A DNA stretch of 64,000 nt from Anaerosolibacter sp. (lineage in GTDB: Bacteria; Bacillota; Clostridia; Peptostreptococcales; Thermotaleaceae), in contig NZ_JARBTM010000002.1 in assembly GCF_029240175.1 (NCBI RefSeq), positions 62,001 to 126,000 of the forward strand, written 5' to 3'. The notes below the pieces were generated by a model. That model was not told the origin of the DNA. It did no database searches and worked only from the letters and a program-made list of their open reading frames with translations. The position numbers and the translations under genes were made by a program. Positions 37,853 through 63,908 of this stretch are shown one piece after another; the stretch's first letter is position 1, and each line of letters opens with the position of its first letter.

Positions 37853-37886
37853 TAATTTTAATATTCTAAAAATTAATACTTAAAAG

Positions 37887-38194
37887 TGATGAGGGAGAGA
37901 AAAATACCATCCTAAGACTACAGAGAGCCAACGAGTTGCTGAGAGTTGGCGTCGAAGCGGTATATAATAATCACTCCTGAACTGCCGAGTCAAAAAGCGC
38001 AGGCTGAGTAGATGACGCCGGGATTCTGTTTTAAACAGAAGTGCCACCGTTATATGGCTAGGGTTAAAAAGATATGTTCTTTCGACCTGAAGAGTCAATT
38101 CATGTGAATGAATTGTGAACTAGGGTGGTACCGCGAAGATATCCCTCGTCCCTAGAATACAAAGAATTGTATTCTAGGAACGAGGGATTTTTTA
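37887..38194 (+). ncRNA. T-box leader, ilv operon
   Basis: tRNA-sensing riboswitch. The T-box antiterminator sequence AGGGTGGTACCGCG is at 38122-38135 and a strong terminator, CCCTCGTCCCTAGAATACAA with its complement and a T run, ends at 38194; the 5' part of the terminator stem competes with the antiterminator. Stem I is seen around GAGTTGGCGTCGAAGC and the specifier is probably ATC (Ile, 37970-37972), judging from its place and the A that follows. Uncharged tRNA-Ile would turn on the branched-chain amino-acid genes downstream. T-box identity is firm, the specifier reading is less certain. Confidence 0.92.
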
Positions 38195-46957: not shown

Positions 46958-47182
46958 CTATAGAATTGTGTCGAGTCTTTCCGGGTCAAAGCCGACCACG
47001 TATTCTTCATCAACCTTGATTACCGGCACGGCCATAATTCCTTTTTGCATTAATTCTTTGCGGCCTGCTGGATCAGCAGAAACATCTACCTCGTCATATT
47101 GAACACCCTTCTGCGAAAGATACTCCTTCGCTGTTACACAATGAGGTCATGTTTTTGTCGTAAATACTGTAACTTTTTTCAA
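46958..47182 (-). CDS. Probable selenocysteine-containing glutaredoxin
   Basis: Reverse-strand frame of 74 residues interrupted only by one TGA at 47149-47147. With TGA read as Sec it starts KKVTVFTTKTUPHCVTAKEY (Met from TTG 47182, GGAGG 8 bases upstream) and ends with the glutaredoxin/NrdH core GIMAVPVIKVDEEYVVGF. Sec12 replaces the first Cys of the CxxC redox motif (UPHC, Cys15). A 7-bp stem with loop AGUAU (47131-47113) lies 15 bases after the UGA and puts a loop G at +24, as bacterial SECIS elements require. It is monocistronic with its own terminator. Standard gene finders miss it. A Cys-to-stop mutation or error is the alternative. Confidence 0.85.
47113..47131 (-). promoter_or_regulatory. 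Putative bacterial SECIS hairpin
   Basis: On the reverse strand GCGAAGG-AGTAT-CTTTCGC: seven base pairs (one G-U) and a five-base loop with G in its second place. It directly follows the in-frame TGA of the glutaredoxin gene within the coding region, the usual bacterial position for SelB binding. Confidence 0.75.
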
Positions 47183-47361
47183 AATAAGCGCCTCCGTTTC
47201 AACTGTTTAATGATTGAAAAATACTTATATATTTATTATTTCTAGAATCATTTCCGTTATCCTTCTTATCTTGAGAATTCATTTGAAAGTCATAGGCAAT
47301 ACTGATATAATAATCTAGCTTTATGAAACAGATAACAGATTGAATAGGGCGGGTGAAAAAT

Positions 47362-63671: not shown

Positions 63672-63908
63672 ATGAATATGAGGCAAAGAAGGGAAGTAGT
63701 AGGTTGAATCGTTGCATATAGAGAGTCATCGGTTGGTGGAAGATGACAGCAAAGAAGACTGAACTCGTCCTGGAGCTATTGGGGTGAAGAAATTAGCCCT
63801 GATCGGGTAAATCCGTTATCGTTTTTGAGAGGACAGTCGTAGGCTGTCAAGTAGAGTGGTACCGCGAGTCTTTCGTCTCTATATAGGGATGAAGGGCTTT
63901 TTTATTTT
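63672..63908 (+). ncRNA. T-box leader of leuS
   Basis: tRNA-binding leader with the T-box antiterminator GAGTGGTACCGCG at about 63854-63866 and a downstream terminator (AGTCTTTCGTCTCTATATAG / GGGATGAAGGGC with T run). The stem I specifier is probably CTC (Leu) in TGAACTCGTCCTGG, in line with the downstream gene. Uncharged tRNA-Leu would allow read-through. Confidence 0.9.

Follow-up and report, generated by a model that had tools for sequence, protein, structure and literature searches.

A small glutaredoxin gene of Anaerosolibacter sp. whose in-frame UGA is in all probability read as selenocysteine

Introduction

A lone stop codon at the very place where a redox enzyme would carry its first catalytic cysteine leads one to wonder whether the gene is broken, wrongly sequenced, or decoded with selenocysteine (Sec). 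The question is raised by a short reading frame of Anaerosolibacter sp. (Thermotaleaceae; assembly GCF_029240175.1), which lies in a stretch of 64,000 nucleotides (contig NZ_JARBTM010000002.1, positions 62,001 to 126,000) that was analysed as a whole and is called here the window; positions are those of the window unless a contig is named. Sec-glutaredoxins are an established family: proteins of the UxxC type are listed in the part of a 2026 review that was available (PMC13188914), and the accessible portion of PMC1794560 tabulates glutaredoxin selenoproteins for Alkaliphilus metalliredigenes (two), Geobacter sulfurreducens and Moorella thermoacetica. The window gene thus adds to a family already described in related clostridia and is not a new class. 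With respect to selenoproteins of Anaerosolibacter itself, the literature search returned, in the portions of the texts available, work on other bacteria only.

Results

The gene occupies positions 46958 to 47182 on the minus strand, stop codon included, starts with a TTG at 47182 and encodes 74 amino acids, MKKVTVFTTKT-U-PHCVTAKEYLSQKGVQYDEVDVSADPAGRKELMQKGIMAVPVIKVDEEYVVGFDPERLDTIL, with a single in-frame TGA at codon 12 (47149-47147). This TGA sits where the first active-site cysteine is expected (TKT-U-PHC) and the second cysteine is kept, so that U would be the first residue of a UPHC motif. A Shine-Dalgarno sequence, GGAGG, was read 8 nt upstream of the start codon (47191-47195, minus strand), and a sequence scan found downstream an intrinsic terminator-like hairpin of 12 pairs followed by TTTTT (46938-46911, minus strand), which starts 20 bases past the stop codon, with 19 nt between; over the 601 bases of the scan, shuffled sequences give 0.3 hairpins of this kind. 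Upstream of the start codon, as far as 47400, the same scan detected nothing on the minus strand that resembles a sigma-70 promoter. An earlier note on this DNA had described a glutaredoxin/NrdH frame interrupted only at the first active-site cysteine and flanked by a ribosome site and a terminator, and all these elements, from the frame and the TGA of codon 12 to the UPHC motif, the stop and both flanking signals, were found again.

In profile searches, the window gene reaches 70.6 bits against Pfam PF00462 Glutaredoxin, for a gathering cut-off of 22.9 (E 1.3e-19). The closest NCBIfam model is YruB (TIGR02196), but with 86.3 bits for a cut-off of 88.55 the gene falls 2.25 bits short, and it likewise stays under the cut-off of NrdH-redoxin TIGR02194 (59.4 versus 85.75 bits). 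We class the predicted protein as a YruB/NrdH-like glutaredoxin. The nearest solved structures are PDB 7c10 and 7c12, chain 7c10_A being aligned over residues 2-74 with an E value of 3e-25; together with 7c13, we take these entries to be glutaredoxin-1 of Clostridium oremlandii (cGrx1). The part of PMC7642778 that could be consulted describes CPHC and Cys-to-Ser forms of cGrx1, which fits this identity.

The genome that holds the window (3.87 Mb, 50 contigs, 96.5% complete) possesses the Sec machinery whose absence, according to the earlier note, would have refuted a selenoprotein. On contig C24, profile searches placed selD (402 bits), selA (631 bits), selB (387 bits) and tRNA-Sec (74 bits) between positions 147140 and 155959, each over its family cut-off, and selD carries one in-frame TGA itself (SSGUAAKMG). 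Among 14 control genomes the cut-offs were passed by 1 for selA, 2 for selB, 2 for selD and 5 for tRNA-Sec, which makes the tRNA model the least specific of the four; weight is therefore placed on selA, selB and selD together with ARAGORN, which reports a tRNA-SeC with anticodon tca. Among the matches listed in the homologue search, selA is present in 43 of the 44 genomes with a TGA match versus 38 of the other 54 (Fisher p 2.9e-4); these 44 genomes were counted by eye, 38 being checked at the active-site codon and 6 by an in-frame stop in the match listing. The exception (G060) is a genome that is 79% complete.

The homologue search covered 98 genomes, the window genome included, and gave matches in 80 of them. 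We examined 90 of the matches listed, first 30 and then 60 more; one match without a stop (L096) gave no tblastn match and was left out, so that 89 aligned rows remain, among them the window gene (L029) and two paralogues from its own genome (L073 and L099). Codon 12 is TGA in 48 rows, TGT in 24 and TGC in 17, and nothing else; the alignment with Cys- and Sec-glutaredoxins that the earlier note proposed thus sets the TGA in a column that otherwise holds cysteine. The 48:41 ratio is no prevalence, since the third batch of loci was picked with a preference for TGA matches and mostly omitted weaker ones without TGA, while 8 of the 56 TGA matches among the matches listed are not included in the rows. 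Two other glutaredoxins of the same genome may be mentioned. L073 (contig C27, 22854-23072) is a paralogue of the Cys type, which lacks a TGA and has the motif CVYC. L149 (contig C26, 3754-4089) is a second Sec-glutaredoxin, whose C-terminal CxxC...CxxC tail resembles a zinc ribbon (Zn_ribbon_4, E 8.4e-6, 26.1 bits, below the cut-off of 30.3). Such tails occur in 19 of the 48 TGA rows versus 2 of the 41 Cys rows, and the combination of glutaredoxin, selenocysteine and zinc ribbon was not found in the literature searched.

The congener Anaerosolibacter carboniphilus DSM 103526 (L030, the same locus as L127) has the TGA at the same codon, and the window and this genome share the gene order methyl-accepting protein, EamA-type, glutaredoxin, MATE-type, the names being taken from reading the sequences. 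Beyond the TGA, 53 of 61 compared residues are identical between the two genes, with a dN of 0.071, a dS of 2.35, which is near saturation, and a dN/dS of 0.03; on this comparison the sequence downstream of the TGA is under purifying selection.

A hairpin, GCGAAGG-AGUAU-CUUUCGC, extends from +16 (47131) to +34 (47113) after the TGA, minus strand, and can be drawn with 7 bp and the loop AGUAU or with 8 bp and the loop GUA; its loop G lies at +24 (47123), in agreement with the geometry given in the earlier note. We regard it as a putative bSECIS on the basis of folding, of the row comparison and of the constraints in section 5 of PMC13188914, as far as that section was available: a loop of 3-9 nt, a stem of 4-16 bp, a G as first or second loop base, a distance of 16-37 nt to the UGA, and an MFE of -7.5 kcal/mol or less. 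With the loop 22 or 23 nt away, the G present, and energies of -8.3 (stem alone) and -9.8 kcal/mol (45-nt segment), both under the limit, the window hairpin lies within these bounds, as coded for our analysis with a contiguous stem. The stability of the hairpin by itself is within chance, because 37 of 200 shuffles of the 45-nt segment fold as well or better (z -0.91), and of 2500 TGA triplets on the two strands of the window, 33 (1.3%) are also followed by a structure that passes the rule at -7.5. Rfam scans of the whole window and of the gene region returned no match to a SECIS family. In the gene region the scan yielded three matches only, to the unrelated families TtnuHACA20, SNORD87 and sR11 (E 3.4-7.9). 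The only gathering-score Rfam matches of the whole window are two T-box leaders (RF00230) at 37880-38156 and 63677-63883, plus strand.

The hairpin stands out from chance by its distribution: it accompanies the TGA homologues, and most Cys homologues lack it. The mean MFE of the segment is -7.09 kcal/mol in the 48 TGA rows versus -1.32 in the 41 Cys rows, with a Mann-Whitney p of 4.5e-15 that overstates independence because the rows are related; 41 of the 48 TGA segments are distinct. In the fixed register, at least 5 of the 7 pairs are present in 38 of 48 TGA rows versus 6 of 41 Cys rows, and all 7 pairs in 12 versus none, the outermost pair (+16/+34) being formed in 17 TGA rows; several TGA rows (e.g., L040, L060, L064, L065 and L067) have the hairpin in a shifted register. 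One of the first two loop bases is a G in 38 of 48 TGA rows and also in 11 of 41 Cys rows. A bSECIS-like structure at -4 kcal/mol or less is scored in 40 TGA rows and 2 Cys rows, and after 175 of the 2500 TGA triplets used as background; at -7.5 or less, with contiguous-stem scoring, the numbers fall to 8, 0 and 33. At +17/+33 the fixed register reads C-G in 19 TGA rows, T-A in 11, G-C in 4 and G-T in 1, the remaining 13 being unpaired, and we count these substitutions as pair-keeping changes. Many Cys rows encode near-identical residues with little or no hairpin (for example, TAKEYL in L032, L036, L053 and L055), so that constraint on the protein does not by itself account for the hairpin.

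There are signs of repeated exchange between Sec and Cys in this glutaredoxin family. On a tree of the 89 short protein rows, in which the active-site column stayed (X, counted as gap, for TGA rows and C for Cys rows), parsimony requires 15 changes of the Sec/Cys label, where shuffled labels give a mean of 29.6 and none of 500 shuffles as low a number. The number of exchanges is uncertain, since no more than 3 are required by the well-supported branches and the columns are too few for a firm tree. Three Cys rows (L033, L041 and L045) keep 6 of the 7 hairpin pairs between +16 and +34 after codon 12; these look like possible relics of a former Sec state.

As for redox partners, the window genome has one MsrA match, which reads GCFWG without in-frame TGA, and seven AhpC/TSA-family matches, three of which have an in-frame TGA as the codon of the catalytic position, DFT-[FPY]-V-U: DFTFVUPTE (L151, contig C27, 33432-33806), DFTPVUGTE (L152, C4, 51628-51999) and DFTYVUPTE (L153, C1, 181795-182181). 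This fits the TxxU motif of Sec-peroxiredoxins given in the available part of PMC13188914. No match to glutamate-cysteine ligase (PF04262 or PF04107, the two families searched) was found in this 96.5% complete genome, and the thioredoxin reductase model gave 14 matches, one of them over its cut-off.

Discussion

Taken together, the Sec machinery, the column shared by TGA and cysteine codons, the hairpin that accompanies the TGA and the purifying selection beyond it bear out the selenoprotein reading of the earlier note: the gene very probably encodes a small selenoprotein glutaredoxin in which the in-frame UGA is decoded as Sec. SelB loaded with Sec-tRNA(UCA) would be recruited by the hairpin just downstream and insert Sec at the UGA, and translation would then continue to the true stop. 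The mature protein would be a thiol/selenol-disulfide oxidoreductase with a U-P-H-C site, a chemistry transferred from the characterised homologue, in which the selenolate would attack the oxidised substrate and Cys15 would resolve the bond.

Two other readings of the TGA deserve consideration. A TGA is one base from TGT or TGC, and the window hairpin alone is within chance; one may thus imagine a cysteine codon that was mutated or misread, with no functional protein behind it. This is very improbable, and we reject both the pseudogene and the sequencing error, as the identical TGA is found across species, in the congener and in 48 of 89 rows, a recurrence which makes an error unlikely, and as the codons beyond it evolve at a dN/dS of 0.03; the hairpin that tracks the TGA and the presence of the Sec machinery point the same way. 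The UGA could instead be read as another amino acid, through near-cognate suppression or a change of code, and tRNAs other than tRNA-Sec are known, in general, to read through UGA. We give this scarcely any credence for a genome that encodes SelA, SelB and a dedicated tRNA-Sec with a TCA anticodon, at a position held by cysteine in 41 of 89 rows and followed by a hairpin that fits the bSECIS constraints.

Which proteins the Sec-glutaredoxin serves is a separate matter. In C. oremlandii, according to the accessible part of PMC7642778, cGrx1, whose motif is U(or C)PXC, and cMsrA are both native selenoproteins, and cGrx1 was proposed as the reductant of cMsrA. It would be tempting to transfer this scheme to the window genome, which does encode an MsrA. 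The Sec-Sec pairing of the two enzymes is rejected here, its single MsrA being of the GCFWG type without TGA; a Cys-type MsrA could still be a client, although we think it unlikely that it is the main one. Since MsrA is a Cys enzyme and three peroxiredoxin genes carry a TGA, the partner may differ from that of C. oremlandii: our most likely candidates, at the level of a guess, are the three TGA peroxiredoxins, the glutaredoxin being fed by a donor of the thioredoxin reductase type or by another thiol. The three genes and the lack of a glutamate-cysteine ligase match suggest a selenium-based redox relay that can be tested. The fuller scenario, in which a glutathione-independent, all-selenium peroxide relay runs in this anaerobe from the Sec-glutaredoxin to the Sec-peroxiredoxins, and the catalytic residue of the glutaredoxin has switched repeatedly between Sec and Cys across the order, so that some Cys genes retain a SECIS hairpin as a relic, is put forward tentatively, and we hold it to be possible rather than probable.

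The locus adds a well-supported Sec-glutaredoxin from the Thermotaleaceae, in a gene that is likely to be cut short or missed by standard annotation, and the family appears to be a good case for following the exchange of Sec and Cys. With respect to known systems, the window protein resembles cGrx1 of C. oremlandii in the CPHC of the structure alignment, a common IMAVPVI stretch and GFD; the two differ in genus and in MsrA, the only one found here being of the Cys type. The Uxx_star family (NCBIfam NF041212) is related by profile (54 bits, E 1.5e-14), yet the window gene stays below its curated cut-off of 66 bits and is not a member. In the available part of PMC1794560, the selenoproteins tabulated for A. 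metalliredigenes include two glutaredoxins and two peroxiredoxins, a set similar to that of the window genome, which has three TGA peroxiredoxins instead of two.
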